Assembly: GCA_902728285.1 (NCBI GenBank)
Contig: CACVBU010000389.1
Span: 46,734 to 110,733 of the forward strand
From: Clytia hemisphaerica
Taxonomy: Eukaryota > Cnidaria > Hydrozoa > Leptothecata > Clytiidae
Length of the DNA stretch: 64,000 nucleotides
Direction of reading: 5' to 3'
Position numbers and translations under genes: made by a program. The first letter of the stretch is position 1. Every line of letters begins with the position of its first letter. Below, one piece after another: positions 9,124 through 54,243 of this stretch. The notes beneath the pieces were generated by a model. It did no database searches. It saw only the letters and a list, made by a program, of their open reading frames with translations, and had not been told where the DNA came from.

Positions 9124-9393
9124 GGGCTCTCCCAGAAAAAAAATTGTACATGGGGGGGGGGTGGAGGATATTTTGTCCGGGGGTAGCAAAAAATCATAAA
9201 GATTTCCCTTGTCCGGGGGGTAAATTTGCTCTGTCCGGGGGTAATTTGGGGTGTCCGGGGGGTCAGCAGATGCTTGTCCGGGGGGGTAAACCTATTGTCC
9301 GGGGGGGCCAAAAGTTACCCTGTTCGGGGGATAAATCACTAAAAATTGTCATATCCTCCAACCCTCATGTACAATGTTTTTCTGGAAGAACCC
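9124..9393. mobile_element. TIR element with iterated TGTCCGGGGG words
   Basis: The terminal repeats are about 28 bases. The left end starts GGGCTCTCCCAGAAAAA and runs to ATTGTACATG, and the right end is its inverse, reaching 9,393. The interior repeats TGTCCGGGGG about six times (9,170-9,310), separated by short AT-rich spacers. An open frame crosses the words but is explained by the repeat. The architecture resembles the G-run elements at 9,899, 14,343 and 18,537, but the termini differ. Confidence 0.65.
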
Positions 9394-9419
9394 AATACAT
9401 GGAAAAGATAAACCTTAAT

Positions 9420-9690
9420 TAGTCCAACCGAAAATAAACCCTTAGAGAGGTAAAATTCTTTTTTTGGGAACCCTTGGAAAGACTTCCTAAATTTTGGTAG
9501 ATTTTCACCAAGTTTTGTTCGAAATTTCTGGGAATTTTGACCCTTTCTGAGGGAAACTCTCGATTTTCGTGATTTTGGAACTTCTCCTTCAGAGACTAAC
9601 TTATAAATCTACACCCCATTCGAGAGACTTTTGAGGCGTGAAAAAGGTATCCTTATGGCTCGCACATACCCGTCCTGTTTTGATCAAGTG
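9420..9690. mobile_element. degenerate fragment of the G-run element family
   Basis: It contains eroded versions of the CCCTTAGAGAGA word. It ends in a GCACATACCCGTCC tract like the right subterminal part of the element at 9,899. No G-run or target duplication is preserved. Confidence 0.4.
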
Positions 9691-9898
9691 CAACCGCTGG
9701 GCTCTTTTGCTATGCTATCAAAATGTTCGAATAGTGCCTTCAAAATTCCCAATATCCAGAACATTCGGATTTGGAGAATTTAAATAGACTTTTACTCCAC
9801 AGAAGGGCCTTTAGCGAACTTTCTACTTGATTTTCAACCTTTGAATAAGTATACGCCTGTGATAGATTCTCATGGCGTTATACTCTGCAACTATCGTC

Positions 9899-10259
9899 CC
9901 GGGGGGGGGGGGGGGTAGGATACTAGGGTTGGTGAATGAGGGGTATGTGCGGACGGGACCTCCGAAAAACCGACCCTTAAAGAGACTGATTTTTGCTGAA
10001 AAGGTGACCCTTAGAGAGACTTTTTGAATTTTTTTATTTAGATTTTTGAAAAAAGTGATACCCTTAGAGAGACTTTATTACAATTTTTTCTCTGGAAATC
10101 AAAAAAATTCCTAAAAATCTTGAATTTTCCGACCCTTAGAGAGACTAATTTAAAACTTTCTGATTTTTCCCCTTAAAGAGACTTTGAAAGGTGAAAAAAC
10201 CGACCCTTACCGTCCGCACATACCCATCATCCATTTTTGCCTAAGTCCCCCCCCCCGGC
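9899..10259. mobile_element. G-run-bounded element, CCCTTAGAGAGACT words
   Basis: It begins CCGGGGGG and ends CCCCCCGG. Inside each end lies GGTATGTGCGGACGG in inverted orientation. The copied target CTATCGTC appears at 9,891-9,898 and again at 10,260-10,267. The interior repeats GACCCTTAGAGAGACT about six times, with 25-40 base spacing. There is no coding capacity. It belongs to the same subfamily as the copy at 46,033. Confidence 0.8.
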
Positions 10260-10269
10260 CTATCGTCAC

Positions 10270-10740
10270 TTGAAAGACTGCCAAATGCCTGAGCTAAGAG
10301 TGCTACATTTTCACCTCTTTTCAGCTGGAAATACAGTGCCGTTCCCATTAAATATTGTAATCATTAGGCAATTTTGGGACAGTTATTTTTGCATTTTTTA
10401 TTTCCAGCTGGAAATAGAGAGCCGTTCCCATAAAATATCTATATTGCTCTGACGTTTGCTACCTTTATTTTCCTTTTTGATCTCCAGCTGGAAATAAAGA
10501 GCCGTTCCTATACATTTGTATATCTCCTCCTGGCAAATGTGAACGGCTATTTTAAGGAAAAGGTCGAAACTTTTTTTTTGAGAGCTGTTCCCGTGCAATT
10601 TGTTCCATTTTCCTGGCATATTTTTCTTTTCCAGTTGGAAATTTGGAGCCGTTCCGGACAACCCGATTATGTTCATTTTATAGAAATTTTCTCCTGGCTG
10701 GCAAAAAGGAACGGCTTTTTCGTGTTTTGCCTCGGTGGCT
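10270..10740. repeat. ~80-bp tandem array with TTCCAGCTGGAA palindromes
   Basis: Palindromic TTTCCAGCTGGAAAT followed by GAGCCGTTCC recurs near 10,322, 10,402, 10,482 and, more degenerate, 10,630. Inverted GGAACGGCT appears near 10,707. The spacing is close to 80 bases. Overlapping open frames on both strands (10,398-10,760) are explained by the array and are not called as genes. Confidence 0.65.
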
Positions 10741-10859
10741 GCTTCTGGAACTTTGGCCACTGTACAAAATAGTCAGATATCGAAATTGTTGAAAAATCAA
10801 AACTGGATGAAAAATAGGGAGTGGTACGACACAAAAGTATTTTTAGCTCTTGCACCTGC

Positions 10860-11557
10860 GTTCGGTAATTTAGCGTTTCCCTTATACATTGAGTAGGTAG
10901 TTGTTAGAGAAAAGCTCATAAATTTTTAAATAAAAAATAATTCAGAGAACGCAACTTTTCTTGTTTGTTTTGATGCCTTAGTATCACGCCAGAAAATTTC
11001 AAAATAATATTTTGGTTAATTTTATTCTGACAGATTTTTGACAATCATTTTCAAAACGAGCTATTCCCTGTGAATAAAAGAAAACCTTGATATTTGAAAT
11101 GTCACCTCCCCGACTGCGATTTGGGCAAATAGGATTTTTTATCGTATGGGTTGCTTCATTTTTTTATTTGCTTGTGATAAATGCATGATAGGGCCAAATA
11201 ATTTGAGGTGTGATGCGTGATTTGGGCTATTTTTTGAATAAATTTTAGCGATTTTCGTGATAGTGATTTCAAATTTTACCTTTCGGCTCACAGCTAGGGG
11301 GGATTGGAAGGTGCACCACTTATGGACGAATATTAAATTTTTATAGTCAAATAGCTATATTAGAATCTTTGGGATGCAAAGGTTTTTGTTGAGAAAATGT
11401 GCTAGGAAAATACCTTAATGTTAGGTTTCCTCTCATATTACCCCCCCTACAGTCATTGTAATACGTCAGATTTGTGACATACCTTAACAAAGGAAATACA
11501 TGAATCTGCCTAGCCTAATCTACTAGGAGCCCTTTCAGAATAAGGATAAAGTTTGAG
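10860..11557. other. AT-rich spacer downstream of the receptor gene
   Basis: Nothing recognisable is present. If the receptor transcript continues past the donor at 11,614, its last exon should lie in or beyond this stretch, but I could not identify it. Confidence 0.4.
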
Positions 11558-12565
11558 TTACGGGGAGGAATAAAGAAATAAAGAATAGAAAAAAAATGAT
11601 AACGTACTTTTACCTTGCTTCCGAACACCGAGGAAGATCGTAAACTTCTCCCATTGAAATCGAATCAATTTACTTGCGTGCCTATTATTATACAAGAAGA
11701 TGAGGGCGTTGGCGCCCGCACTCAAACAAAAAAGGGCGTAACACCCTAAATGTGTAAATTGCATCCACCAAGATAGACGGCGGCCACTTCGGTCTGACAC
11801 GACGGCTTTGATGACGGTTGAACAGAAAAACGGGATTCTAAGCGGCAGCAGGGTACATAAAGTAGACAACATGATTTTACGTAAAACTTTCTCTGAATAT
11901 GCCGTATAATGCATCATGTAGCTTGAAACGGCTTTACGTCGTTTGGCAACAAGCTCTGTACGCCTGTATATCAATACAACCAGCACGATTAAAAGAACGC
12001 CAATAAAAGTCTGGAAAATCTCTGTCTGTAGGTAAGCGTCGACATCCCCATTACTATCAGCTAACAATGATATTAAAGACATTGATCCAGCTACGATAAA
12101 AGCCAACAAAAAAGCGATGTTGACTCGTGTATGGGTGATAATTTGCTTTACGCGTATCATGTGTCTTGTATGAATGTACCGGGAGATCGCTATAAGCACC
12201 ACTAAACAAAGCGATAAATCAGCTAGAACAGATGATGAAAATTCCACTATAAGGTCAAAAGAGCATGGCAGTTCTGGATGGAAGATCTTTACAGCAAATA
12301 AAGTTTGTGCTGTGATGGCAAAACAACAATCACTCATACAAAGATAGACCAACAATGAAATAGAAGGTCTACGTTTGATTTGTTGCGACTTCACTAAAGC
12401 GTATATAGAGAGTACATTTGCACACAGATTGACGAAAAGGATGCTCAAATCAATAGCGATTAGGATTGCACGTTGTCCACTGGTGATGTCTAGTTTCCCA
12501 GTAGTGAATGCAGTTGTGCAAGGTGCTTTTGTCGTCTCGTTCCCAGTACTTGTATGATTTCCCAT
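11558..12565 (-). CDS. rhodopsin-like (class A) G protein-coupled receptor
   Basis: This is an open frame of 335 codons with seven hydrophobic segments at about residues 33-57, 69-93, 103-128, 149-168, 180-200, 229-253 and 268-292. The N-terminus has NHTS and NETT glycosylation sites. Class A marks include Asn in TM1 (CANVLS), Asp79 in TM2 (MSD) and Cys101 before TM3. The TM3 end is Ser-Arg-Tyr at 128-130 instead of Asp/Glu-Arg-Tyr, and TM7 has ANALIFLY in place of NPxxY. The second extracellular loop is very short and has no cysteine to pair with Cys101. The ligand is unknown. Codons past residue 317 (after VRKQ) probably read into an intron, because a GTAAAAGT donor sits at 11,613; the true C-terminus may lie in another exon. 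The start at 12,565 is the first Met before the glycosylated N-terminus. Confidence 0.85.
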   Translation of the reverse strand: MGNHTSTGNETTKAPCTTAFTTGKLDITSGQRAILIAIDLSILFVNLCANVLSIYALVKSQQIKRRPSISLLVYLCMSDCCFAITAQTLFAVKIFHPELPCSFDLIVEFSSSVLADLSLCLVVLIAISRYIHTRHMIRVKQIITHTRVNIAFLLAFIVAGSMSLISLLADSNGDVDAYLQTEIFQTFIGVLLIVLVVLIYRRTELVAKRRKAVSSYMMHYTAYSEKVLRKIMLSTLCTLLPLRIPFFCSTVIKAVVSDRSGRRLSWWMQFTHLGCYALFCLSAGANALIFLYNNRHASKLIRFQWEKFTIFLGVRKQGKSTLSFFFYSLFLYSSP

Positions 12566-14334
12566 GGTGGAATTTTTCTTCTTCTACTCTGTTATCTGTT
12601 ATCTGTAGAATTATTCGATTATGATTTTTGATTCTCTTTACGTATGATTCTTCTGTAAAAATCTTTTGAATTCGGATTGGTGCTTCTGGAAGTTTTATGA
12701 TTAAGATACATTCGATGATGGAAATATGATATTTTACCTCCTGTTTCCTGATTGCGAAATCGGAAAATCTCGAAATTCTTTCAAGCCATTTGAGTTGCTA
12801 GTATTTGTTTTTGGAAATTATCAGTGACTCCATATTTCATAAATTCAAATCCAGGCAAGTATATTTCTGGTTAAAATGTGCGACCACTAAAATGAAACTT
12901 CAAGTAAGTGATATTTGCAATCAAATCACAGCAGAGTTAAAATCGAATCAAAATAAGTATTGTAGATTTTCTGGTAAGCTTTGGCTCTGCCTGGAATCAA
13001 ATTTGCCGACGCAGAAATAAAACCATGTAGAAATGACACAATCTCAAAATCATTTCTTTCTCTAGGCATCGAATCAAAAAAAGAATTGGACAATTCTTTT
13101 GTCTTTTTTCTTATTCACGTATTTTTTCATTGCAATAGAATTTGTCGAAATTTTTCTTGAAGAATCTTTTTTTGAATATAAATTTCTTTCATTTTTTTGT
13201 GTTTGAACAATAGGTTAATTAATACAGACCTTTTAAACTACTGTGTGAAGAAAAATTGACAGTGCCACATGTTGAGAGTGCAAAAAACCTGAATTTTGAC
13301 CTGTTGACAATAGAGGGATTTTTGTATATGCATGGCTGTCATGGTAACTTGCATCTGCCTTGACAACAAAAAAAAACAAAGAAACAAGGCTGAAATGCTT
13401 TTTGATTGCGTATGGCCAGATTTTCTCGTGAATTTTTCTTGAAATACGAATTTTTTGATGACTTATTTTTCACGAAAAATAGCCTGTTGCATTAAATTTT
13501 CCCAAGTCGAGTTAGTGGGTGAATATTTAAAACGGATAGGAGCTCTATGGTATTCCATTCTAATTTCTGTGTTTTAGAAGTTCAAAATTTTCCCATGACG
13601 CTCTATGAGTTTATGTAAAGATCCTTGACAAAAATCAAATTGCAATGAATACAGTAGATCATGTAAAGCTCTTCTTTTAAAGCACCTATTTAAAATTCAT
13701 ATCGACATGGCTTCACCGGAGCATTCAATTTGAAATTAATGTCCATCCGTTGGTCCAAAAAATTTGTTTTTTAAAAATTGAGGTTCAAAAAATTGATCGT
13801 GATCCTGAACTTTTTGCTGTCAAAAATTATCAAAATATGTGCATGACAGTTGAAAGAAGAAAGCCACCATAAAAATTTTGTTACTCTAAGTATATATTCC
13901 AAATAAATATACCTCATTTTGAAGGACGAAGGAACTGATTTTTTCAAATTAATTGGTAGAGCTTTGAAATTTCGTGACTCAAGAAAACAAGGCAAATTAC
14001 TTTAAAATACCTATCAAATCAGTTTTTTCAAAAAAGATGAACAAAATAAAAAAATGTTAAATGAAATAATAGAATAAAATAGCTACATGTCATTCGAGCA
14101 TACCTCCAAGCTCGAACAACTTATCCACAAATTAAAACATTCGAAGCCCTATATTCTTACTACTGCGAAAACCGCAATTATCGAATATAATCAAATAAAG
14201 AAACTGCATGAAAAGGGTTGGGTTCTAGCATTCAAAAGAATTGGCGCGCTCATCAGACAAGGCCATTTGAGCTTTTGTAAACTCGTTCTCAATTCCCTAT
14301 TGTTCTAATATCGAACAAGTTGTCTAACAACATG
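12566..14334. other. intergenic stretch, no gene recognised
   Basis: It is AT-rich, with several short open frames (for example 14,087-14,308) that show no domain or conserved motif. It may hold the receptor promoter on its left edge, but no defined element is visible. Confidence 0.4.
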
Positions 14335-14342
14335 ACAAAAAG

Positions 14343-14695
14343 CCCGGGGGGGGCACTGGGTTTGCGGACTGACGGTATATGCGGGCCAAAAATTGGCTTT
14401 AAAATTGCACCCTTACAGTGCAGCAAAAATCAGTGAAAATCATACCCTTAGAGTGCATTTTCCCCCAAATTTTCGATCCCTTTTGTGCAAAAAAATGGTC
14501 AAAATTCTAGCATTCTTGGTCAAAATACCTAGATTTTTCAAGAATTTTCTGAAATTTCTACCCTTACAGTGCATCTCTAGTTTTTCCGACCCTTACAGTG
14601 CATTTTAAACATATTGGAAAAGGTACCCTTAACACCCGCACAAGCCCGTTGGTCCTTTTGCCCAGCTGCCCCCCCCCCCTCCGGGACAAAAAGGC
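14343..14695. mobile_element. G-run-bounded element, CCCTTACAGTGCA words
   Basis: It starts CCCGGGGGGGG and ends CCCCCTCCGGG. It is flanked by the exact 8-bp duplication ACAAAAAG (14,335-14,342 and 14,696-14,703). The interior repeats CCCTTACAGTGCA about five times. Overlapping open frames are repeat-derived. It lies just downstream of the cysteine-rich gene's poly(A) signal. Confidence 0.85.
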
Positions 14696-14806
14696 TTCAC
14701 GGAGATTACCAGCTGGCACACAACGTTGTTCGACGTTGGAAACGTTAGATAAACGTCGAAAAAACTTTGTGTGCCAGCTGGGTTGATTCCTGCCATGGTC
14801 AAATTA

Positions 14807-18169: not shown

Positions 18170-18415
18170 ATTGTCTGTAGACAGGTTGTAGTGGTTCGAA
18201 ATACCGTTTTCCCGTCAAAATCTTGACTGAATCCCGAAATCCCGAAAATTGAAAAAAATAATAACAACGTCACATCGGAGAGGTTAAAATACCGGAATAC
18301 TGACAAAAAATAAAGCTAATCACCGTCACCGTCTGGTCTTGAAATACCGCTTTCCCGTCTCTTTTTACGTCAAATTCCGTAATACCATACTAAAAAAGGG
18401 TCAATCCCGTCACAC
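18170..18415. repeat. iterated AATACCG / TTCCCGTC tract
   Basis: AATACCG and TTCCCGTC words recur about eight times, mixed with AATCCCG. It looks like a word-iterated element similar to the one at 53,905, but I could not define its termini. Confidence 0.4.
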
Positions 18416-18536
18416 CGTGGTGTGCTTCATTTTAAAGGTTGTCATACCTTGGCTATGCTGTATTCTTTGGTCCCGTGCTTTTATTTATGTCAAGAAAGCA
18501 GCGATGTCATAAAGTTCTTTTATGGTATCATTGGAT

Positions 18537-18865
18537 CCCGGGGGGGGTACTAGGGTTGCGAGCTGACGGGGGGGTGCCGCCCGACTTTCGAACTTTGGAC
18601 CCTTACCGGGACTAAAAAGGAGAAAACAAAGGAAAATTTTGGGAATTTTACGACCCTTAGCGGGACTAATTTGACCAATTTTGACCAAATTTCGATCTTT
18701 CAGGGGGTAAAAAGTTGAAATTTTCCTATTTTTCCGACCCTTACTGGGACTGAAATTTGATTTTCTGATTTTTCCGACCCTTAGCGGGACTTTGGAAGTC
18801 CAAAAAAGGTACCCTTAAGGGCGGCACATACCGTACCCTCCATTTGCCTAAGTACCCCCCCCGGG
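18537..18865. mobile_element. G-run-bounded element, CCCTTAGCGGGACT words
   Basis: It starts CCCGGGGGGGGTACTAGG and ends CCTAAGTACCCCCCCCGGG. It is flanked by a perfect 8-bp duplication, CATTGGAT (18,529-18,536 and 18,866-18,873). The interior repeats GACCCTTAGCGGGACT about five times. This is the cleanest copy in the window and defines the family's ends. Confidence 0.9.
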
Positions 18866-18959: not shown

Positions 18960-19135
18960 AAGGCTTCAGACACGTTGGGCTATTATGATTGAGAAAATTT
19001 TGGAATTTCAGTCCCATTCAGGGTCACTTTTTTCGCAAATTTCGAGTCCCACGTAGGGTCCATTTTTCGAACCTCAGCGGAGCACCCCCGTCGGTCGACA
19101 AGGGTAGTACCCCCCCCCGGGGGACAAATTCTTAT
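18960..19135. mobile_element. right-end fragment of a G-run element
   Basis: It has AGGGTCCATTTTTCG-like iterated words and ends in GGTAGTACCCCCCCCCCGGG. No left terminus or duplication is visible. It lies about 100 bases from the copy at 18,537, so it may be a second, truncated insertion. Confidence 0.5.
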
Positions 19136-23255: not shown

Positions 23256-24526
23256 GACCTTTTGCTAGTAAGGATGAATAAGTGAAAACTTGAGCATCAA
23301 AACAATGATAACAAAATTAATGCATACTTATAAAATAGACCTTTTCCTAGGCTTGATGCAGGGGGGGCTCGGTACTAAAATCCAAGACATATATGAGTAC
23401 TAAAAGGTTTTTTGACGATTTTTGACATACCCCCACCTAATTTTTGAAAAAGGAATTTTAGTACACATGTACTAAAGTTTTTTTTGACATTTTAGCATAG
23501 TGACCACCTAAATTAGGCTTACTTTGGAACTCGTTTCAGAGAATGGGTCTTTGGACTTTCAATAAAATGCCAACTCTGGTTATTTAAGCTGTTAATGAAC
23601 CTGATCTATCTCTCTCTATTCTAGATATATAAAGACTCAAAAACAGTCAAGACACTTTTGCTCTGCTCTACTTTAGTTATTGCAAAGATTGATTGGTTAT
23701 TTTTTACCTCTAATTTACAGCTTGCTATTTCTTTTCTGTTCAGTTATCCATGGTTCTTTACAAAGACAAAGCATTCAACTTCGAAAACATTTTTTATTCC
23801 ATAGTATATAAAAGCAGAACATTAAATACACCCCTGTTTCACAGCCCCGGTGGAACTGTTTTCCTCAGTGGGGATAAAAATTCTATTGTTCCAAGGTTAA
23901 AAAACCCAGTTGGGATGGTTCTGGAGTGCAATTTTTAAACATGGAATTTCGAGTGGGGATGAAATCAAAGTCAATTTCCCAGTGGGGCTGAAATTCAAGG
24001 GTATTTTCCCACCGAGGACGAAATTTTTGCTTAATTTGTGACACAGAGGTGTTAAAATCTTATTTGAAAAGTTTTTATTTTTTTCATTTTGCCTAAAATG
24101 CTCGGTCAATAGTTAAATTTCCTAAAATTTGATGATTTTTTTTTAAAACTTTTCTTAAATTTCTTGAAGACCCCACCTAATTTAGGATTTTAGTACACAT
24201 GGTACTGAAATGCTTTAAGGCTTTTTTTGTAATACCACCACGTCACTAAAAGTCATGATGTCTGAAATTTTAGTGCTGACCCCCCCCTGCTTGATGTCCA
24301 TGTTGGATAATTGAAAACTCCAGCATAAATTGTGATAACTAAAGTTTCCCTCACATCTGTTAAAACATGGAGGTATCATGATTTATGCTGGAGCTTTTTG
24401 AAAATTATCTGACACATGACATTGTGCCTAGGAAAAGGTCCATAGTTATGCATTATGTGCTATTGTTTTAATGCTGAAGCTTTTAACGATTCAACATGAC
24501 ATCCTAATTAGCAAAAGGTCTTTTTC
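23256..24526. mobile_element. nested MITEs with AGACCTTTTGCTAG / AGACCTTTTCCTAGG ends
   Basis: The outer arms are AGACCTTTTGCTAGTAAGGA at about 23,257 and its inverse near 24,525. A second, related pair of arms (AGACCTTTTCCTAGGC at about 23,337 and GCCTAGGAAAAGGTCC near 24,430) lies inside. The inner G-run element at 23,359 sits within that pair. Iterated CATCAAAACAATG and CTCCAGC words are shared with the complete short copy at 24,812. The arrangement is three or more layers of insertion. Confidence 0.6.
23359..24288. mobile_element. G-run-bounded element inside the nested MITE
   Basis: It starts CAGGGGGGGCTCGGTACTAA and ends ACCCCCCCT. The 8-bp duplication GCTTGATG lies at 23,351-23,358 and 24,289-24,296. 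Outer interior words are TAGTACACATGTACTAAA-like. A central block around 23,845-24,010 repeats CAGTGGGGATGAAA, a word also seen near 47,115-47,240, and may be a further insertion. No coding capacity. Confidence 0.75.
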
Positions 24527-26862: not shown

Positions 26863-29800
26863 GATCTAGAGTGGGTCCCGCATGAAAAGAAAGATTTGAA
26901 ACCATCCAAACCAAACCTTCTACAACTACGAGTGATTAGTTTGGAATATGTTGCAAGAAATGTTCATTATTTCTTTGAACAAGTCCAAGCTCTCCCATCT
27001 TCCCAATTGATTGACCTCTTCAAAAAGGTAATTTTGTTTTTCTTTGGATTAATCTTAAAGTTTAACCTTTCTTCACCTATTTTTCAGCCTTATTTAAAGG
27101 AAACGTTACACTTTTCGATTCTCAGTTTAGTGAATGCATACCATAGGATTGGTTATTGGGCTAACATTTGCAGTACAGTACTGAACTTAACTGACGCTGT
27201 TATTGTTTTTTCTTTGTAGATGTGTCAATTGAAACTTGTCGATAATTTGCAAAGATTGATGTCCAATCTATCTCTGTTGGAGAGGCTTATTAAACATCCT
27301 TGTAATTGGTAAAGCTATTTTTGAATTTCATTTATCATGGGAACACTTAGGCTTAAATCAGATGCTTGAGTACGTGTCTTAAGTGTCACTCTTACAATCG
27401 ATAAAATCATGCTGCTCGGAAAAACCTTTTGTGACATGATCAATAAATTTCCATATAGGGTCTGCAACAGTCTTTTTCAAACATCTTCAACTTTAAAAGC
27501 TATTAATAGATAGATCTTTACTCCAAAGTGACGATTTAGGAAAAGCTGTCAATATCCAATAATTTGAAATTAAGATAAACATGTATCAGCTTCAAAATTT
27601 GATCATTGGAGATTTTGAATAAGGAAAAGTGTTAGTATAATAATTTTTGGACCTACCCCGGTGGGGTGGAGGTCCTATAAATTAACCTGTGTTCGTTAGT
27701 TAGTTAGTTAGTACGTTAGTTACCAACTTTTCTCGAGATTGGCTCATTCAATTTTTCTGATTTTTTGCACAAAGGTGCATTATTATAAACCCTCGAATGT
27801 GACGGAGCCCGATTTTCGAAAAAAAAATTTTTCCGGCCGGTAGAACCGGAAATGTCCCGAAAAAAGCGGTTTTTTGAGATTTTCTCGAGATTTTATCATT
27901 AGTTTTTTGCGATTTTTTGCACATAGATGCACATTAGTACTGCCGAAAAGGTGTCGAAAACCGTTTGCCGAAAAAAAATTTTTTCCGGTCTGTAGAACCG
28001 GAAATGTGCCGGAAATCGTCGTTTTTTCACATTTCCGTCACATTTTTTTCAACTTATTTAATTGTTTCTTTACAGAAAAATGTTCTTTATGATGATGCCC
28101 AAAACTTAGCATCGTTTGATTTCCAAAAAAATCATCCTTTGAATCCGGAACTCCTTAAAAATCGCCGGAACAGCCGAAAACCGGCGTAAAACGGTTTTCC
28201 TTCATTTTTTCAACTTATACTCGACAGATTTTCATGATTTTTTGCACAATGATGTAAAATGGCAATGCCCAAAATGTGACAGAGCCCAATTTTCGAAAAA
28301 AAAAATTTTCCGGCCGGTAGAACCGGAAATGTCCCGAAAAAAGCGGTTTTTTGAGATTTTCTCGAGATTTTCTCATTAGTTTTTTGCGATTTTTTGCACA
28401 TAGATGCACATTAGTACTGCCGAAAAGGTGTCGAAAACCGTTTGCCGAAAAAAATTTTTTTCCGGTCTGTAGAACCGGAAATGTGCCGGAAATCGTCGTT
28501 TTTTCACATTTCCGTCACATTTTTTTCAACTTATTTAATTGTTTCTTTACAGAAAAATGTTCTTTATGATGATGCTCAAAACTTAGCATCGTTTGATTTC
28601 CAAAAAAATCATCCTTTGAATCCGGAACTCCTTAAAAATCGCCGGAACAGCCGAAAACCGGCGTAAAACGGTTTTCCTTCATTTTTTCAACTTATACTCG
28701 ACAGATTTTCATGATTTTTTGCACAATGATGTAAAATGGCAATGCCCAAAATGTGACAGAGCCCAATTTTCGAAAAAAAAAATTTTCCGGCCGGTAGAAC
28801 CGGAAATGTCCCGAAAAAAGCGGTTTTTTGAGATTTTCTCGAGATTTTCTCATTAGTTTTTTGCGATTTTTGCACATAGATGCACATTAGTACTGCCGAA
28901 AAGGTGTCGAAAAACCGTTTGCCGAAAAAAATTTTTTTCCGGTCTGTAGAACCGGAAATGTGCCGGAAATCGTCGTTTTTTCACATTTCCGTCACATTTT
29001 TTCAACTTATTTAATTGTTTCTTTACAGAAAAATGTTCTTTATGATGATGCTCAAAACTTAGCATCGTTTGATTTCCAAAAAAATCATCCTTTGAATCCG
29101 GAACTCCTTAAAAATCGCCGGAACAGCCGAAAACCGGCGTAAAACGGTTTTCCTTCATTTTTTCAACTTATACTCGACAGATTTTCATGATATTTTGCAC
29201 AATGATGTAAAATGGCAATGCCCAAAATTATACATTACTTCCATTAAATTCTAATTATTCGTTTTATAAATAGGTAGGTCCATTAAAGTATTACTTGTTT
29301 AAATTTAAAGTAATCTATTTTCTCCAATACAGGATTACAATGCATCAGGCGTTGAATTTAGTTTTAACCAAGGAGAAAGATTTTGATTACTTTCTGGCAG
29401 AGCAGAAGAAAGCAGCTTGTGAAATGCTGAAAAAACAATTCACCAAAGAAAACATATGTAACCTGAACGAATTGATGCAGTTTGTTCATGAAAGTATCAT
29501 TCTAGGTAAGTCTTCCAGGGAGTGTATCAGAATTCTATCAGCCTCGTTTTTAACCACACCTATAACTTTAATACGCCTCCCTCAAGACGAAAATTCAAGA
29601 CCTATATAATATGGTATGTATAAGAAATAGCAGGAAATACAGGGTGTCCCGAAAAAAAGTATCGAGTCGTACCACTTCTATGGAAAGTGTGTGTTTCACT
29701 AAATCTGCAATGTTTATCAAAGTTCCTCTCTGTGTCATATTAATTGTCATCAGACATCTTTTATGAACGACTTTTACAAAAAGCAATTCTCAATAACTTT

Positions 29801-35800: not shown

Positions 35801-38800
35801 TTACATTTTCGAGCTCCTCTTTTGAGCTCGATTTTCTCGTATTACGGTATTTTTCAACGACTAAGTTTACAAGTCTATCCCTTTTAGAAGAAGGAAGTTT
35901 TTTGTGTTTTTTGTTTCAAATTTTCCGCTTTTTTATTGCTTCATAGGTTCATTTCTGACAGAACATGGACGTTACAAGAGTGCATACATTGTTTTCGAGT
36001 GTGTGGAAATATCTGATTTGAATGGAAATATTGAACCAGCTATGTTATCCATGGCATTTGATATAGCTCTAAGGTTTGAACTTTTTTCAAAAGCACTTTT
36101 ATGCAAGGGCGTACAAACAAGGCAGCTAGCACAGGTGTCGCTTTTGGGTGTTAGTGAGATTAAGTACTCACATACCGTATTACTTCGAATAAGCGCCCCG
36201 AACGTTTATTAATGTTTTAGACTTTTAGGGGGGATGGGAGCGTTTATTTGATTTGGGCTTTTATTAAAAGTTTTCCTTCAAAGGAGGGGCATTTTTTTAG
36301 GGGGCGTTTACTCGAAATAATACGGTACACGGATACTTATCTTTTGGAAACAAAAGACTTGTTTAGTTCTTGTTGAGCAACGCTTCGTTATGGAAATGTG
36401 TTTGAGCGAGAAGTTTGAAAGCACTAAATCACTAAATCTTCACACGAGGGAGTTTATCACAATAATAATCTTCCTACTTTCTGATCATTGACGATATAAT
36501 TCATCGATTAATACCCCTCAGACTGTCTGATGTTTAATGATAAATAGTTTCTGCAATTTAATTTAAAAAAGATTTCTTGAGTTATTCATAATACTGTTCG
36601 GATATTTTTATTTTCAAGTTGGAAAAATATCTGCCTTGAAAAGCTAAGCTTTTGCCAGCTAAAACACATCAGTATAAAACATTCTTCTAATAACGTTGTG
36701 TAGACGTTGAGAAAACGTTTATCTTGATTCTTTCTAGGACATCACATGTGTTGACAGTGGATTGCAAATATAACGAAGCAAACAAAGCCATCTTGAATAC
36801 GTCTCTCTTACTCTCTTACATGCACAATTCAGGTTTACATCCGAATTGTGCATTGTTTTATACGACCTGCAGCATGTACATGTTTTCTCTATCACAGTAT
36901 GATAAGGTAATATCTCGACACAATATGATTTTTGATAACACTTGTATCGTAGTTCATCTCTCTCTAAGCAGTCGTAGCAAGAAGGTAGAACATCCAGCTT
37001 CAGTGCGCAAAATTGTTGGTCCGATTCGAAGTCAGGTCATGCCAAAGATTCCCAAAATCGTACTTGATGCCTCTCTGCTTGATGTTCAGTACCTCAAGAG
37101 ATGGAAAAAGGAGAGTGACGCCCTCACCTACCTTCGGGTAGACAGCTAGACCAAATTAGATTCTCCGTTCAAGGTCGTATTATCGAAGGTTGACTATTTA
37201 CTTATTTTATTGAGTTTTTTTTTTCTTTTTCCAGGCGTACAATTTGGCAGTACAAGCCGTCCAAGAAATCAGTTGTGATCTGAGTCCAAAAGTAATAATT
37301 TCTCACTAACCCAAAATTTAGAAATATTAAGTATTAAATTAAAACATTCTTCTAATGCACTGTGTTGGATTTCTCCACGGGAATAAGGCGGGTTCGTGGA
37401 GGTCAAAATTCTTGCAACGTTACAAATCATTTTCAGAAGCTCGTTTTGGGCTCAAACGAAGCGTATAACTAATTAGAATAAGATTCAGTCTAGGCAGATG
37501 TTTTTTCATTTTGAAATTTTGTGTAATTCGCAAAAATCCTCAATTTTGCGCTATTTTGATGACGTCATAAAAATTTAAAGTCAAATAACTTTTGATAGAA
37601 TCATCAAAATAATTTCAAACTTTCACCAGAGATGCATTTCAATGAAAATTTCCAAAAAATCTTCAAAAATTTTCAAAATCTTGATGACGTCAGCATTTTT
37701 TAAGGATTTTAGTTTTTTTGCCTAAAAAGTGATGACGTCATCAAATTTCATAAATTTTTTCATTTAATTCTGAAAACATTAATAATATGCATCTTTGGTC
37801 AACATTTGAAATTATTTTGATAATTGTATCAAAAGTTATTGGGATTTTAATTTTTATGACGTCATCAAAATAGCGCAAAATTGAGGATTTTTGCGAATTA
37901 CGCAAAATTTCAAAATGAAAAAACATCTGCCTAGACTGAATCCTATTCTACTTAGTCATACGCTTCGTTTGAGCCCAAAATGAGCTTCTGAAAATGATTT
38001 GTAACGTTGCAAGCATTTTGACCCCGCCTTAATCCCCTGGAGTTACAACTATTCAAATTAAACCTCAAAATTAGTATACCTCCTTCTATAAATTTGAACC
38101 CGTCTTTTTTGTCTATATCCAATTTTTCTCGATTTCAAGTATGTTCTTTCTTAAATTTTTCAATCAAAACAAAACTCTGAATGAGATTTTTTTCGTCACA
38201 CATGACAATTTATTCGTTATAGATTATAGTTGACACTCTACGGCAAGCATGCAAAGTCTGCATCATCAAAAGGATATTCTCACAAGCACACATCTACATC
38301 AACGAAGCTCTTAAGCTTGCAAAGTATGTACTCAAGCGAAAACTCCTGCTCTAAAATTATGGTTAATATTTGAGAAAATGGGGAATCCCTGTTATATTTT
38401 CAATTAAATTAGCATTTGTATGAATATGGGAAAATGATTTGAATTAATAAGTTCTCCCGTTTTCAGTAGTTTTTTGAACGCGGGCTCTTTTCCTACTTTT
38501 AATCCACATTTGACATTAAGTTGATAATGGTTTCAATCAACAGAAACTCGCCTACAGTTATCTCTCTATCCCTCAGGTAAGTTATGGCATATCTCAAAAA
38601 CTGAAAATTACCGTCATTTTTAGATCGCACTAGCCGACAGAAAATGACCAAAATATGACTGAACATGAAGGGTACTATGATGTAGTTTCTAACCTGATGT
38701 GTAACCTAACAAAAACTGATCATGACGTCATCCTTCATCTTAATCATTTGTTTGGTCATTTTCTTTCGACTAAAGTAATGCGTTCTTAAAATTATGATAA

Positions 38801-41800
38801 CTTAAGACATAACTTAAGTCTTGTTAACTGAAAAGTTACCAGGAAAATTACCAAGTAGAATAGAAGTGATAATCATGCTCTCCGCTTAATTCATATTTTC
38901 GACTGTTCTTTCCTGTCTAGATATTGGTTTGGAGAAGATCATCCAAAATATGCCGATTGTTTGGCTGATTATGGTTTTTATTTGATCAGTGTTGATTCAG
39001 TCACCGCTTCTGTTAAATTCTACGTGGTAAGTACACCTGTATGAAAAAATGAGTTCTCAATTTCAAATCTCAATACCATAAGGGAATTAATTTGGCTAGA
39101 GGTCAATTGTTTAAGTTGAATCTTAGCTAACACAAAACGTTAAAAAGTCATTCCTCTAACGTCAACTCCTACGTTAACCTATATACCGATGCTGTATCTT
39201 TTAATTTTGTTAATTTTGGTGTACGACGGAGTTAATCTTTAACGTCTAAGCCAAAACATTGCATTCGGAATTCCCATGGGCTGCTAGTATCCGCTTACGG
39301 AATTGTGCTTCTTATACTACATGCGCTTTTGTAGAGGTCTGCGATTCAGACCAGAATACGTCTGGTATTAAATGGATCTTCCATTATCGCCATTGGTTTT
39401 TCTTAGAACTTTAACGATCTTTTTAGTTAAGTTTCTGTTTTCTTTTAGATGGCACTTCAAATACGTCAATCACTGTTCGGTGACCGTAACCTTGTCACTT
39501 CAATGACGCACGAAGATTTAGCGTACGCTATATACGTACGTGATTACAGCATTGGGAACTTCGAAAGTGCCAGGTATGTATTAGCGAATACCTCACTAAA
39601 AACCGGGATTTTTCATCTCGTTTCTTAGTGAGTTCCACTTTGACGATTTTCGAAAAATAGAAGCCTTTCAAGTGCTTTGACGCAAATTCGATTTTTTCGC
39701 TCTGCAGGAGCTTCGAAATTTAAAAGTGACGTCAAAAAATCGAATGTTTAGAGCCCGAAAACCCGGGCTCAAAACATTCGAAAAAATCGCAAAGTGGAAT
39801 AGATGTTAATTGCGTAAAAAACGCGGGTGACGTCTAGTATAGGCCAGGTATGTATCAGTGTTCTCTATTGTTTTCTTATTGGGATAGTGCTTTCCTATGA
39901 TGGTAGAAGTCTGTCCAGTTTTAGAATTGACTATTCTGCTATGCTGTTTTCATTTTCGGTTGTTAACCACGAGATTCGAATGTTTTGAAATCGAAACGTT
40001 CGAAAATTCCACGTAAAATAGAAAATAACATGTCGGACTAAAGTAGTGTATTTTAAAACTTGACTAAATTTAAAACCCCATGTCTAAAGGTGTTCACAAT
40101 ATTTCAGACTTAACCTTTCTTCATCAAATTTGTAGAGGCCATGCGGAACAAGCACTAAAAACAATGGTTGAACTTTTACCAGAAGATCATCTCATGTTGT
40201 CATCCGTCAAAAGAGTTCAAGGTACGTTTAGGGAAATAATTTAACTGTTCTATAATTCCCGCGGTTCTGTATCTCTACCGCGAAAATCATTAGTACAATG
40301 ACAATGGACAACTTTGTTTCAAAATTTGGATAGAAATCCCAAAAACCGAAAGAAAATATTCCCAATGAGCCCCCTTCCCCCCCAAAAAAAAGATAACTAG
40401 CTTTAGATATTATTCCGATTGACTTGAAATATTTTAGTGTGCACTCAATATGAATTGGCATCTTTGGTAAAAATTTCGGCATCATTGATGACGTCAAAAT
40501 CTTAGCAAAATCTAACCTTGCCAAACACTTTCTGTTAAAATAATTTTTCCCTTTCGCTGCTGCTATCATGAACATAAATATACCTACACATCAAGGGTTG
40601 AAACTGCCAGAGATCATTTCAATTTGATATTTTATTGGTTCGGTGCACTGACCTTTATATACCCTGGACCAAGTTTCTCAATCCCGACCAAGCAAAATCT
40701 TTGATCGGAGTTTTTTTGAAAAGTGGTACCCTAATGGCGGCACTACTCAATAACGGTGTAAATGCATCGAGAGCGCTAGATCTACCTTCCGTGGAACCTC
40801 TAATTAGCGGACACATTCGGGGAAAGGGGTTAGTGTCCGCTAATTAGAAGTGTCCGCCTTTTAGAAACTTTTGATCTCGGAGCTCCAATTGTGAAATTAG
40901 GCCATCCCAGGGTGTCGTAAATACAAAATTGGGGTCTAAAGTACTTATCTGCAGACACTAGGCCATCAGAGCTCGAGCGACTGGCAAGAGGTTAAATCGA
41001 GGTGGTGGGTACGGACTTGAATTACCAGTGATTTATGATTTCTTTGGCCCATCTAAATTCGTTGAATGGGTCAAGGGAAAACTGGAAATTTGTAGAAATA
41101 ATTTGAATAATAAGACTAATAAGTGCTTGAAATAAAAATATCTAAATTTTTTTTTTTCGATTTTGGACGTCTGTGACCCGTTTGGTATTCAGTCCGCTAA
41201 TTGGAGAGCTAAAATAGGGGTTTTGGCCATTTCGTGCGAAAAAGTTTGTCCGCTAATTGAGTGTCCGCCTCTTAGAAGCTTTTTTATGAGGATTTGACTA
41301 GGAAACGGCCGGGGAAAATTAAATTGTCCGCTAATCAGAGGTATCCGCCTTTTAGAGTGTCCGTTAATTAGAGGTTTTACTGTATGATGTAGCGCCGTTA
41401 GACGTTAATTTTTAACACTGCAATGACTTCTTTACGGGGTACCAATTCAAAAAGAAATTGGATCAAAGATGGCGGATATAGCTTAGTCCAGGGATATATA
41501 AAGGTATGTGGTTTGGTCGAGTCTTGGTGTACAATTTATTTTATATTTCCAATTTTCATTTATAGCTCTGATACTGGAAGAGATTGCTCTAGATAGCGAC
41601 AACAAAGTTATGGAAGCTAGGCTTCTAGGCTGTGCAGAAAAATTACATCTTGATGCACTGAAGTTAGCTAAGTATGTCACAGTCGACGTTCTTTTGACGT
41701 CATTTCAGTGACTTCATTCTAACAATGATGTTTGTAATTTTTTTCCAAATCCAAACAGATGAGACTATCTAGTAAACCTTTAAATCTTTGAAGAAAATAT

Positions 41801-46032: not shown

Positions 46033-46444
46033 CCCGGTGGGGGTACTTAGGCAAAAATGCATGATAGGTATGTGCGGACGGTAAGGGTCGGTTTTTTCAC
46101 CTTTCAAAGTCTCTCTAAGGGTCGGAAAAATCAGAAAGTTTTAAATTAGTCTCTCTAAGCCACGGAAATTTTTTTTCAGAATTTTTAGGAAATTTTTTGA
46201 TTTCCAGAGAAAAAATTGTAATAAAGTCTTTCTAGGGGTACGACTTTTTACAAAAATCAAAAAAAAAATTGTAATAAAGTCTCTCTAAGGGTATGACTTT
46301 TTTCAAAAATCGAAAAAAAAAAATCAGAAAGTCTCTCTGAGGGTTACCTTTTCAGCAAAAATCAGTCTCTCTAAGGGTTGGTTTTCGGAGGTCCCGTCCG
46401 CACATACCCCTCATTTGCCAACCCTAGTACCCCCCCCCCCTGGA
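46033..46444. mobile_element. G-run-bounded element, AGTCTCTCTAAGGGT words
   Basis: It starts CCCGGTGGGGGTACTTAGGC and ends in ACCCTAGTACCCCCC and further Cs. Imperfect flanking copies are GTTTTACC (46,025) and GTTTTTCC (46,445). The interior repeats AGTCTCTCTAAGGGT about seven times. It is the same subfamily as 9,899 in reverse. Confidence 0.8.
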
Positions 46445-48150: not shown

Positions 48151-48151
48151 A

Positions 48152-49569: not shown

Positions 49570-52152
49570 TTAGTTTGCAGCAAGGTGATATAATGCATAA
49601 CCAAAAGTGCTACAACAGATGAGTGAACGGACGGCATGAAGTTTGTTCCACTTGTGATAATTCGAAACAATGTAGTCTGATCCTGAAATGAATAATAGTC
49701 AGAAAATTTGTTCTTAGGCTTTTAGACCATTTTGAAAGACATTCTATGCATAATATCTAATTTGCAAATCAAGAATTGAGTCAAAAGGTGAAACAGGAAA
49801 AATCTAAGAATGTTCAAATAAAGACGAAAATTTCGGTGAAAGAAATACGCAATTCGCAGGAATAAACTTTTGCAAATGACAAATTTGACCATATCTTGCG
49901 GGAATTAACTTTCACGAATGGGGACTTTGTCATTTTTTGCGTAACTTAATTCTTACAAAAGTTTCTTCCGTAAAGATTTCTTCCTTTTAAAAAAGTATAG
50001 AGTTTTGATTTTCTAAAAAGTTGGGACCAAATTAAACATACATCTGAACCAAATAATCATGTTACCTTGCTTCTTGCATTCCTCTACATCTAATAAGAGG
50101 TTGTTTGTTGGTTGGACGAAAAGTAATGTGTAAGGGAACACAAGTTCACCAAGTAAAAGTGCAACCAGAAGCTTCTTATCTGCTTTCTCTGTACCTTTTG
50201 TTAAAGCATAATGTCCAATAGCCATCAGAAATGCTGCACTGTATGTCAGAGGCTGAAAAACAAGAAAATAATTTTGTTATTCTTTAAAAAAAGATTTTTT
50301 GAGAAAATAAATCTTGCAAAATTAAATCAACACAAAATTTCCTATATAATATATTCAGCTTAAAAAAGTACATTGTAATTTTTGCTATTTCTAGTGTTTT
50401 TAGGGCAACTTTCAACTAAACTTTTGGCTGATTCGTGATACTAAATCCATGCAAAACTCTTCAAAATGCTGATTGTAGTGAGAATATTTTATATGTACCG
50501 AGGATAGGTTATCCTTTTCTGAAAAATTTGATGAAAGCCCCAACATGCTTTAAGTCAAAGAAAGGTAAATACATTGCTTAGATCCTTACACATCGGCCTC
50601 TTTGTTTTAAAAACAGTGGGACTTTTGAAACAGGAATCAGTGACTACCATCACTTGATTTTTTATAGCATGTTCAAAGCTAGTTTTAAAACAGCTCCCAA
50701 AATTATACCGTGAGATTGGGTAACTTGCATCATTGGAGGCTAACATGCATAGCCCTCAAATGAAAGACCTGGCTGGTCATTAAAATACAACTACGCAGCT
50801 CCGCTTGCAGCTCTAGTCTACTATTTTTGTTTTGATTTAACTTTGTATTTAAATGACCAGCCAGGTCATTCGTTTGAGAGCTATGCATGTTATCCTCCAT
50901 TGATGCAAGTTACCCAAAGCCGATGAAATTTACATATGAGTTTACCGTCGGCCGCCCGCATCTCTAAAAAGCACCCGCATGAAAATTTCATTATCTTCAA
51001 AATTCCTAAAATTTTCATTATTTCTATATTTCTTTACAACTACAACCTCCATCGTTGTTAAAATCGTCTCTACGCAGGATTCCCTCTACGCATGACCTTT
51101 TTCCCAGAATAAACACGGGTAAACAAAGAAGATTTTTTACAGAAAATGTGACCGCCCTCAATCCTACAACTACAGCGGGCGTCACGCCCGTCTATCTGCC
51201 TAACCGCCCTGGCGGCTATTTTAGTTTTTTGCCAAATCTAGCGCCACTGTAGCAATCAATCTTTATTTTTCGTTCGCAAAACATGCGTAGGGTTGAAGCG
51301 AAGCAAAATTTTTTATTTTGAGAGAGAATGGTTAGCAGAAATGGTGGATAAGGTGCTGTTGGGAAAATAATGAATAATGAATAATGAAATCATGCCGCAT
51401 CTATTTTTGGGTAAGTTCACGACGGTAAACTCATATGTAAATTTCATCGGCCCAATCTCACGGTAGATCTTTTAAAAATTTTGATAAAAGTTGTTTCCGC
51501 TCAGCTTTAAGTTGTAATTTTGATTGCGATTTCTCAGATTTTGATTCATTTTAGGGCTATGCATGTTAGCCTCCACTGATGCAAGTGTATTGATACAGTC
51601 AATAAAATTCAAATTTCTGTTAAAACTGGATTCAATAGTCAGGTAAACGCAAATTAAGGATCCCTTGCGTGCGGGGGATACTCATAAACACAACATGTGC
51701 TGCACCTTTAGTATGGGTAGGTTTTTCAACACCCTCAAAATGCGCTGTATAAGGATGTACTTTTGATAGAGCGACTTCACTTTAGTGCCGTTTTAGATAG
51801 ATGCAATGTATGTAAGGATAAATCTTTAAAGTTTCGACTCCAGCCAATCATTTCGCATTTTTTATTTGTTTTGAATTGACATACAGCACTACATGCAGGC
51901 ACATGCCGCTAATAATAGGGAATTCAAATGATAGGAAAATTTACAACACAGTAACTAAGCACTTACACCAAACTTCTTTCCTCTTTTGAAGTTGCTGTTC
52001 CAACATTGCAAAGCATGTTCTGCATCATAATCGAGAGCACATGGAACTTCAACCACATTGATGTAAAGAGCAGAACCAGCAACTAGACCTACTCCAGCTG
52101 TACAGCCTGCTTTCAAAGCTAACAGAAGAGAATCTCTTTGTACAAATGCCAT
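49570..52152 (-). CDS. DUF1772 family four-helix membrane protein
   Basis: Three exons on the reverse strand, 52152-51967, 50252-50066 and 49682-49570, join in frame (phases 0 and 1) to encode 161 residues, the usual size of the family. Four hydrophobic segments are visible: about residues 9-34, 63-79, 90-109 and 142-160. Family hallmarks are the first-helix GLVAGSALYINVVE segment, the C-terminal part of helix 3 with the motif FPYTLLFVQPTNNLLL, and a final W-N-x-LH-x-VR stretch. DUF1772 is annotated by Pfam as anthrone oxygenase after fungal members; animal members have no established reaction, so none is assigned. The first intron carries a nested MITE (50,706-51,465). G+C-rich DNA at 52,270-52,430 may be the promoter. 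Confidence 0.88.
50706..51465. mobile_element. TACCGTGAGATTGGG MITE split by another element
   Basis: The left end TACCGTGAGATTGGGTAACT at 50,706 matches the inverse of CCCAATCTCACGGTA at the right. The inner arms GAGGCTAACATGCATAGCCC pair within 50,735-50,905. The right arm is split by an insert at about 50,917-51,450, whose own ends read GCCGATGAAATTTACATATG in inverse. CCCAA is duplicated at the insert's borders. Confidence 0.75.
51555..51592 (-). mobile_element. fragment of the TACCGTGAGA MITE family
   Basis: Only the arm block GGGCTATGCATGTTAGCCTC followed by ACTGATGCAAGT is present. It lies about 90 bases past the complete copy. Confidence 0.55.
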
Positions 52153-52880
52153 CGCTGTTCTTAGAGGGGTGGGCTTTTGCTCTGAATTCTATCTCTGCTG
52201 AATTAATGAAAAGATGAATTTGCTGTCCAAGGTCCACTTTGGAATGTTTTTGTTTACATTCTTAAATCCATGGTCCAAAACTACGCTCGGGCGGATTAGT
52301 TTCCGCCGCAGTCGCCCCCGCCAAAAATAACCTGGTCGGGGAAATAAATAAGAAGAATGAAATTTACGACAAGATAACAACAGGGCGGCGTGATATCCGT
52401 CCGGGCCCACCGTGTATTGTGCCGCGTGATTCTTTTACAAAGATCTGCGGGTAGAAACTTACAACAATGCAACGATGAAATAGAAATATAGTTTTTTCTC
52501 AGCAACGCCTATATCCTTTGTTTGCTTTAGTTTGGATCAGGTTGACATTAGTGAAGTTAAGTAAATCGGTAAATCACGACAACGAACGAAAATTTAACAG
52601 ACTAGTGATTTTCAACCAATCAAATTTCGTACTTTCACTAGCCGATTATCTTGGTATGCTTAACCTCTTTGTGCCCATGGGCCCCTGTAATGTCAACCTG
52701 GTCCCTTCTTTTCCCCAAGCACGGGACAGTTTCTAAAGCGGATCTTAAATTATACCCGAAAACATCCTGTAGGTGGGGATTGACACCACTTGATGTATGT
52801 ACCGCAGTACCGTTTTGAAGAACTAAAAGTTACTGGGCGTAAAGAAAAACACGATAAGCCGTTTTCCATTCAGAAGCGAG

Positions 52881-53154
52881 CCAGTTTGCAGAGCATGGCA
52901 CGTTCGCTCGAGATCTCGAGCACACAACTAAAAAAAGTCGAGTGCAGGTGCAAAGTTTGAAGTTTTCAGGTGTAAGAGTGCAGCAGACGGTTTTTTAGCC
53001 CAAAGTGCAGAATTCTTTTTGTCTTTTTGCTTTAGTCCAATTGAGGTAAAGGTGCACCTTGTCCGGACTAAAATTTATCAGGTGCGCTCTTCCAGTGAGA
53101 AACTGGAGAAAAAAAAATTCCTCGAGTGCAGCCTTGCCATACTCTGCAAACTGG
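52881..53154. mobile_element. MITE with CCAGTTTGCAGAG ends
   Basis: CCAGTTTGCAGAGCATGGCA at the left is mirrored at the right by TGCCATACTCTGCAAACTGG, with inner CTCGAG words. It is 274 bp and non-coding, between the DUF1772 and KIFBP genes. Confidence 0.7.
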
Positions 53155-53498
53155 GTGTTGACTTGAACCAACCTTAGGATCCGTATTTTTTCGTTGAATT
53201 CATAACGAAAATGATTGATATGATACACCATTGGACAAGGCATCCAGACTCCGAGAAAAAAGTTTACAACAACAATGGGTTTTTTTCCTTGCGTGTTTTT
53301 AGCCGATTTTGTCCCTCTAATTCTAAATATTCTTTTTTCTCACAAAAATTAATGATGTGGTCCGAACCGCACATACCCAAATAATCTCTCCAACCAGAGC
53401 CAACTCTACAGGCCAGAATCATTGTTTCGATGGAAACCTACATTTTTAGAACCATACATGTGTGATCTAGATACACCTTCAAACTTTTGACCCAATTT

Positions 53499-53820
53499 CC
53501 CGGGGAGGGGGGGGGGGCACTTAGGCAAAATAGGGTGTGCCGCTGGTCAGGGTCCTTTTTTTAGGCTCTGAAGATATCTGTCAGGGTCCCAAATCCACTA
53601 ATTTTCAAGATGTGTATCTGACAGGGTCCACTTTTGATTATTTGGACAATTTTTCAGGGTAAAAATTAGAAATTTTTTCAGTTTTTCGTCTACTTTTGGT
53701 CATTTTTGCCACTTATTTTCAATTTTTCGTTTTGACAGGGTCACCATTTTACCAAAAATTCATATCTGACAGGATCAACTTTTCGAACTTTTTCGAACTC
53801 CAGCGGCACGTCCTCGTCGC
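53499..53820. mobile_element. G-run element, CTGACAGGGTCC words, right end lost
   Basis: It begins CCCGGGGAGGGGGGGGGG and continues CACTTAGGCAAAATAG, as in other members. About seven CTGACAGGGTCC words follow. GTGTGCCGCTGG near the left is mirrored by CCAGCGGCAC near the right, but the final C-run is absent, so the right terminus is truncated. Confidence 0.7.
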
Positions 53821-53904
53821 CGTCACCTTGTTACTCGCTATTTAAGCTGTCCAAAAGTGCCCATATGATGATTGATATTTCTAGAACGACACTCAGATCA
53901 AGGG

Positions 53905-54243
53905 GGGGGGGGGTTTCAAGGGGTACCCGATTCCGCAATTCCGCCAATTTTTTCTCCAATTTCCGTCAAACCGTCTTAAATTGAACCAAAATTCCGTCAC
54001 CGAAAATTCCTTTGAAATTCAATATTTTTGTCGAAAATTCCGCAAATTTTGAATATCTTTTACCAATTCCGAAATTCCACAATTTTTTTTGCTAAATTCC
54101 GTTTTTCCGCACTAAAATTGTCCAATTTTCCGTCTCCGACAGAGAACCCGATTTCTGTAATTCCGTCTAAATTTTCGCCGAATTCCGCCACTCCGTCCGA
54201 AAAAAGGACCGATTCCGCTCCTCCGCCAAACATGAACCCCCCC
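53905..54243. mobile_element. G-run-bounded element, AATTCCG words
   Basis: It starts with a run of G after ATCAAGGG (53,897-53,904) and ends in CCCCCCC before a second ATCAAGGG (54,244-54,251), an exact 8-bp duplication. The interior repeats AATTCCG about fifteen times. Open frames on both strands are repeat-derived. Confidence 0.8.

Follow-up and report, generated by a model that had tools for sequence, protein, structure and literature searches.

Short iterated motifs near transposon ends are known from several systems, with which we compare here a family of small elements with CCCGGGG tips found in a 64,000-bp stretch of the Clytia hemisphaerica genome (C275:46734-110733, hereafter the window). 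Members of this CCCGGGG family carry between common termini several copies of a two-part word that differs between subfamilies. Hermes, a hAT transposon, makes an 8-bp target duplication, as the CCCGGGG elements do. It likewise has multiple short subterminal sites, and the BED fingers of its transposase bind several of these repeats. The Hermes site, AAGT, is short and lies close to the tip in fixed phasing (PMC10368747), whereas the CCCGGGG elements have long bipartite words in one direction and tips that are not CAGGG-like. In CACTA (En/Spm) elements, as in the CCCGGGG family, a short two-part motif is repeated many times near conserved termini, the motif differs between subfamilies within one genome, and non-autonomous derivatives retain it (PMC2613891). 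The subterminal motif of soybean CACTA elements has a conserved part and a divergent part that varies by subfamily; TNPA-like proteins bind CACTA subterminal motifs, and co-evolution with the binding protein has been raised (PMC2613891). The CACTA ends, 3-bp duplications and motifs in both direct and inverted orientation (PMC2613891) are unlike the CCCGGGG tips and 8-bp duplications of our family, which occurs in an animal genome.

Galileo, a member of the P superfamily in Drosophila, has repeated THAP sites, bound in a subfamily-selective way, in family-specific terminal inverted repeats (TIRs) that follow a conserved tip (PMC3688188). Its outer tips are conserved between subfamilies, its inner parts are family-specific and extra sites lie in repeats, as here, although Galileo has three sites in TIRs longer than 1 kb (PMC3688188) and the CCCGGGG elements have 2-6 words in about 200-440 bp. 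The CMITEs of corals are cnidarian families of miniature inverted-repeat transposable elements (MITEs) with internal sequence conserved between families; they are piggyBac-like with TTAA duplications, and their TIRs vary around a constant interior, the reverse of the CCCGGGG family (PMC2872659). Tandem repeats inside non-autonomous elements are also found in Tetris (units of about 220 bp) and Helentrons (satellite-like arrays), but these repeat units are long (PMC4079207, PMC7492417), unlike the short subfamily-specific words and positionally conserved spacers of the present family. Distinctive here is the combination of CCCGGGG tips with 8-bp duplications, a word in two parts of which one is fixed, and concerted change confined to the words, seen in four subfamilies of one animal genome. 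No description of such a pattern was found in the openly licensed papers searched.

Anatomy, copy number and words of the CCCGGGG family

The initial annotation of the window had grouped six G-run-bounded elements, each with its own private word, into a single family with 8-bp target duplications. The named elements are all present, but the six represent three or more unrelated families, and the common termini and subterminal motifs that had been noted are shared within one of them, the CCCGGGG family. Its members in the window are E1 (9899-10259, plus strand), E2 (14343-14685, plus strand), E3 (18537-18865, plus strand) and E5 (46033-46444, minus strand), together with the fragments E7 (53499-53829, right limit approximate, minus strand) and E8 (approximately 18990-19121, plus strand). 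One end of the elements reads CCCGGGG(n)TACTTAGGCAAA and the other CCCGGGG(n)TACTAGGGTTG. Inward of each tip lies an inverted subterminal motif composed of a constant GGTATGTGC and about 5-6 variable bases, the latter agreeing between both ends in subfamilies A, A2 and C. Further inward the words follow at intervals of tens of bases, all in one direction, and their number differs among copies. E1 and E5 belong to subfamily A and are 90% identical; the former has five CCCTTAGAGAGACT-type words and the latter contains a 53-bp period. E2 (words CCCTTACAGTGCA) is a member of subfamily E, of which a second copy was found at L019:3869-4194 (92% identity; L numbers denote loci fetched from the genome), and E3 (words GACCCTTA[GC][CT]GGGACT) is a member of subfamily B. 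The truncated E8, with words AGTCCC(N4)AGGGTC, is closest to subfamily B as judged by its single CCCGGGG end. E7 (word TATCTGACAGGGTCC), whose C-run end is lost, is assigned by its terminus to a subfamily D. The interiors of E1, E3 and E5 align clearly as one family and that of E2 aligns more weakly, whereas the E7 interior barely exceeds shuffles and is not clearly homologous to that of E1; terminus and layout suggest that E7 belongs with the CCCGGGG family. E7-type matches were detected at 39 other places with 75-90% identity, some of them partial (40 scored of 1300 candidates, E7 included).

Exact 8-bp duplications flank E1 (CTATCGTC, 9891-9898 and 10260-10267), E2 (ACAAAAAG, 14335/14686) and E3 (CATTGGAT, 18529/18866), as well as the unrelated element E6 (ATCAAGGG, 53897/54244), and the flanks of E5 match in 7/8 positions (GTTTTACC/GTTTTTCC, 46,025/46,445). 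The further duplication reported for the unrelated E4 (GCTTGATG, 23351/24289) is exact over 8 bp when an adjoining G is counted, but is 7 bp (CTTGATG) with the symmetric CAGGGG...CCCCTG ends. We searched for such flanks in the window and 40 fetched loci (41 sequences, 331,503 bases), a set that is not a random sample of the genome because loci were partly picked by a family motif (20 of the 41 sequences). Among 232 G-run...C-run pairs, 8 had exact 8-bp flanks and 3 had flanks with one mismatch, in comparison with 0 of 153 pairs in the reversed-order control; one of the three one-mismatch flanks is a mis-pairing with the end of E1, and the pair search missed E2, E4 and E5. The flanking duplications are far beyond chance, which supports the initial annotation on this point.

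The genome (417.4 Mb in 951 contigs) contains about 2,000 exact right-end sites of the CCCGGGG family, and several subfamilies are present in tens to hundreds of copies. Genome-wide searches gave 675+640 sites for GGTATGTGCGGACGG and 1006+988 for GGGGTACTTAGGCAAA, with 0+0 sites for each reversed-pattern control, and 142+144 sites for GGTATGTGCGTGCC with 1+2 in the control. The elements thus have the short length, TIRs, target duplication and high copy number of MITEs and non-autonomous cut-and-paste elements. From the fetched sequences we extracted 31 CCCGGGG elements, leaving out the overlapping loci L002, L006 and L007, and placed 30 of them in subfamilies (15 A, 1 A2, 8 B, 4 C and 2 E; L066 was excluded); A is over-represented because the first loci were picked by its motif. 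We also examined 20 further right ends selected solely for having no exact subfamily A motif beside them. By their ends and words these were 12 B, 3 C, 3 A2 and 2 A-like, and 19 of the 20 carry one or more words of A, B or C type (up to 2 mismatches); the remaining one, L054, has only a B-type end and no word left. The idea that each insertion invents its own word is rejected in view of this result and of the recurring copies. Likewise, the proposed constant re-invention of the cargo is not supported, since members of a given subfamily have their words in common, and the types at 14,343, 53,905 and 53,499 all recur. In one family copy, L016:495-822, the tip CCCGGGGG directly adjoins the subterminal TATGTGCGG within an exact 8-bp duplication (AGACAAGG); a G-run tip may have been re-formed there by internal deletion.

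The word is a bipartite 16-mer of about 9 variable bases, in AGTCTCTCT, AGTCCCGCT, AGTCTCTCA and ATGCACTGT versions, and a constant AAGGGT. With the two halves separated by a hyphen, it reads AGTCTCTCT-AAGGGTC in subfamily A, AGTCCC[GA][CG]T-AAGGGTC in B, [AT]GTCTCT[CG]A-AAGGGTC in C, ATGCACT[GC]T-AAGGGT in E and TATCTGAC-AGGGTCC in D (E7). The word does differ per subfamily, but because the constant half is common, most of the supposedly private words of the CCCGGGG family are variants of one bipartite site. Position 5 is T in 57/59 subfamily A copies and C in 30/31 subfamily B copies, and the constant AAGGG is near-invariant in every subfamily. When the first, second and last words of the 21 elements with at least four words were compared (9 of the 30 have fewer and were excluded), words within an element differed by 0.0-1.8 of the 9 variable bases and same-place words of subfamilies with different words by 1.7-5.1. 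A and A2 have the word in common (difference 0.26) and different subterminal motifs (GGACGG vs GTGCC), indicating that the two modules change separately. The opposite behavior was observed for spacers. When the A, B, C and E consensus sequences were compared, spacer identity was 0.562 at the same position, 0.447 at different positions and 0.453 within an element (p <= 0.0005 for the position effect, by permuting positions); shuffled spacers gave 0.439 with a slightly different window length. Since words are alike within an element and spacers are alike by position, the word copies have changed in concert and the intervening DNA has not.

A long relative

The two A2 motifs found 11.5 kb apart on contig C28 are the ends of one element (C28:94255-105833), with A2-type ends on both sides and a matched flank ATAAATT at each (7 letters seen). 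Its left end is CCCGGGG(n)TACTAGGATTAATGGG... and its right end CCCGGGG(n)TACTTAGGCAAA..., and each has three full words inside the subterminal motif. The left end is identical to an A2 MITE at 143/144 positions, a stretch that includes its three words. The right end, which holds a 30-bp unit in two copies, is 82% identical over 134 positions. Of 123 candidate matches to the 80-base inner junction 40 were scored, and those on C28, C771, C541 and C432 are complete; the other 36 correspond to the word part, 35 of them over positions 1-41 and the last over 1-52. Among 40 scored of the 437 candidates for an interior piece, copies with 100% identity on C771 and 97% on C432 lie about 4.9 kb from the junction. 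On C28 it lies 7.6 kb from the junction, the longer distance being due to an inserted high-copy repeat, and the uninterrupted long element is probably about 8.9 kb. The matching ends and words indicate that the small elements derive from a longer one by internal deletion or by retention of its ends alone. L022 and L025 were rejected as long copies, since they resemble ordinary ones with another repeat inserted. L071 is an unrelated high-copy repeat within the C28 copy.

What moves the elements and what the words may do

Shared anatomy, duplications, copy number, a matching long element and the concerted change of words but not spacers are all observed in this family. On balance we favor, with some reserve, the explanation that the CCCGGGG elements are non-autonomous derivatives whose words are predicted binding sites for an element-encoded protein with a specificity differing by subfamily, a role that has been proposed for CACTA subterminal motifs and partly demonstrated for the THAP sites of Galileo; the transposase-binding arrays that the initial annotation had suggested would thus be their likely role. 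The elements would belong, as MITE-like members, to a single lineage of DNA transposons making 8-bp target duplications, and the small ones would be little beyond two transposon ends. Conserved parts of the machinery would recognize the tip and the constant halves, while the variable halves would be the address read by the DNA-binding domain of the element-encoded protein. Subfamilies may have arisen by joint change of this domain and its sites, and since the two change together, a small element would keep moving only if most of its words fit the current protein. Slippage probably makes the arrays and supplies new word copies, which selection for binding would keep.

The preservation of words in individual copies gave results on both sides. 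In three C copies the words are better kept than the spacers (1/192 vs 33/564 mismatches), and the fourth C copy, L015, left out of these counts like the E0 relative L005, gives 3/48 mismatches for words and 34/104 for spacers. Two separate families also preserve words better than spacers in most cases, that of E0 (4/67, 7/59 and 6/60 word mismatches vs 25/126, 30/122 and 32/122 in spacers) and the CGCGAAAG (CGCG) family (0/57, and 0/55 twice, vs 91/289, and 93/289 twice). Several observations weigh against the favored explanation. Mismatch rates of words and spacers are similar in subfamily A (6.3% vs 7.5%) and B (5.7% vs 4.8%), and this equal decay is expected after insertion but is no evidence of selection. 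Within an element, words of subfamily B show only partial uniformity (1.81 of 9), those of subfamily C leave a narrow margin, with 1.33 inside an element compared with 1.67-1.82 for A2 and A, and the weakest spacer comparison, A-E, gave 0.51 vs 0.459. In the E0 and CGCG tests the words were delimited on a single reference row, a procedure that favors words; with L032 as the reference, E0 words are better kept in 3/4 rows, and in the fifth E0 relative, L005, they are no better kept (17/53 vs 31/106). None of the matches listed genome-wide for KDZ (110; 21/171 candidates unscored), the hAT dimerisation domain (99; 9/159 unscored), MULE (91; 7/157 unscored) or P RNaseH_N (at least 150 of 247 candidates) lies in the four long copies, no THAP match among those listed lies in the C28, C771 or C432 copies, and the interior piece present in these three seems to be missing from the C541 copy.

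The 8-bp duplication is compatible with hAT, the P superfamily and KDZ (Zisupton), and the CACTA termini and 3-bp duplication of CACTA/EnSpm are absent. hAT termini are CAGGG-like. The well-kept CCCGGGG copies do not end in this way, so the attribution to hAT that the duplication had suggested is supported by the duplication but not by the tips or by the domain matches listed. A THAP consensus reads TxxGGGx, which the constant half TAAGGGT fits in the words of A, B and E but not in those of C or D. A THAP match (E-value 1.8e-5, open frame of 555 aa) was detected 3.5 kb inside the C541 copy, with at least 142 THAP matches across the genome and 77/227 candidates unscored; we treat it as a lead only. 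The THAP domain is described as confined to animals (PMC7776569). A possible exon end (22 aa), EENFIKIASIYENALKRLDLKK followed by GTAATT, matched no Pfam family. P-type transposase domains are abundant in the genome, and six copies lie about 2.8 kb apart at C870:32974-47261. On C267, which was not among the junction matches scored, a lone A2-type motif was found with a KDZ match 13 kb and a THAP match 5.3 kb away, from which no conclusion was drawn.

Three other accounts of the words were weighed against the binding of an element-encoded protein. Under neutral repeat turnover the words would be surviving minisatellite cores, spread by slippage or tandem duplication with short gene conversion and having no binding role. 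Recent local duplications (the doubled 30-bp unit in the C28 right end and the 53-bp period in E5), the variable number of words and the several unrelated types of word-filled MITE-like elements in the genome all favor it, but such turnover should carry spacers along, yet same-position spacers remain related across subfamilies and within-element spacers are hardly more alike than shuffled ones; moreover the constant half is fixed and change is limited to the other half. We regard this account as rather unlikely. The words could instead be sites for a host factor (a transcription factor, silencing or replication protein), exploited or unavoidable, and the MITE-like element at about 37483-37945 repeats TGATGACGTCA, which we take to contain an ATF/CREB site. 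A host factor alone, however, accounts neither for subfamily-specific words next to constant termini nor for a subterminal motif that co-varies at both ends, and we find it improbable. The earlier model of one mobilisation system with constantly re-invented satellite-like cargo accommodates different words between common termini and the E7 interior, which hardly beats shuffles (1/200 reach the score against E1, 0/200 against E3). It is contradicted by the A-, B- or C-type words of the further right ends, by the positional correspondence of A, B, C and E spacers and by the differing termini of E0, E4 and E6, so that little credence is left for it.

More tentatively, and with considerable doubt, we suggest that the CCCGGGG elements, with their tips, their 8-bp duplications and long copies free of listed matches to four transposase families, may represent an undescribed superfamily. 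Their lineage would diversify by exchanging two DNA addresses that can be separated, the variable halves of the subterminal motif and of the word, while tips and constant halves are kept. Such an address-swapping lineage would provide a natural series of matched transposase-site pairs within a single genome, evolving to restrict cross-mobilisation. Should the words prove to be binding sites, one genome would contain five or more parallel solutions to a single problem of protein-DNA recognition, and the way in which a transposase changes its address while all of its sites change too would be readable from sequence and testable. Other short word-filled elements of this genome may then also be transposon ends reduced to binding sites.

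Other word-filled elements in the window and genome

Short elements of other types in this genome are also filled with words, and within the window locally iterated 10-mers were detected at 201 positions with at least 3 partners, compared with 0 in one Markov-model random sequence. That all the elements form one family is ruled out by E0, E4 and E6, which have other termini, and by a MITE nested in E4. E0 (9124-9393, plus strand) has the TIR GGGCTCTCCCAGAAAAA..., the iterated word TGTCCGGGGGG and, from its sequence, an apparent 3-bp duplication AAT; its relatives are L014, L032, L033 and L005/L006. E4 (23359-24290, strand not assigned) is an unrelated element into which a MITE with TIR ACACCCCTGTTTCACAG and TTTCATCCCCACTGGAAAT-type words is nested at about 23828-24053, and relatives of the latter, free-standing or partial, occur in L010 and L017. 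E6 (53905-54243, plus strand) represents an unrelated young MITE family with AATTCCG words, of which 39 other copies with 96-97% identity over nearly the full length were found (40 scored of 934 candidates). A TCCCG/ACCG word array at 18190-18440 resembles these AATTCCG words and had no match in the fetched loci.

The MITE-like element at about 37483-37945 has long inverted ends (ATTCAGTCTAGGCAGATG...), with the TGATGACGTCA repeats in its interior. At 41191-41368 iterated GTCCGCTAATTAGAGG-like words adjoin GAGGTTTTACTGTA, which resembles a Tc1/mariner-type end, and at 10321-10780 lies a AGCTGGAAATANAGAGCCGTTCC word array with some words inverted and no clear ends found. Elements with iterated TTCGCGAAAGTTT-type words were observed outside the window at L018:1616-1985, at L019:3366-3800 and in L034-L036, in the last of which they adjoin KDZ transposase matches. 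The window has a GC content of 35% and looks animal-like, as the THAP matches of the genome also suggest; it contains a KIF-binding-protein gene (Pfam scan), a rhodopsin-type receptor just short of the Pfam cut-off and a copia-like frame identified by eye. Tandem repeats with units of 470 bp and 477 bp and 97-98% matches were found at 4381-5480 and 27796-29228, respectively.

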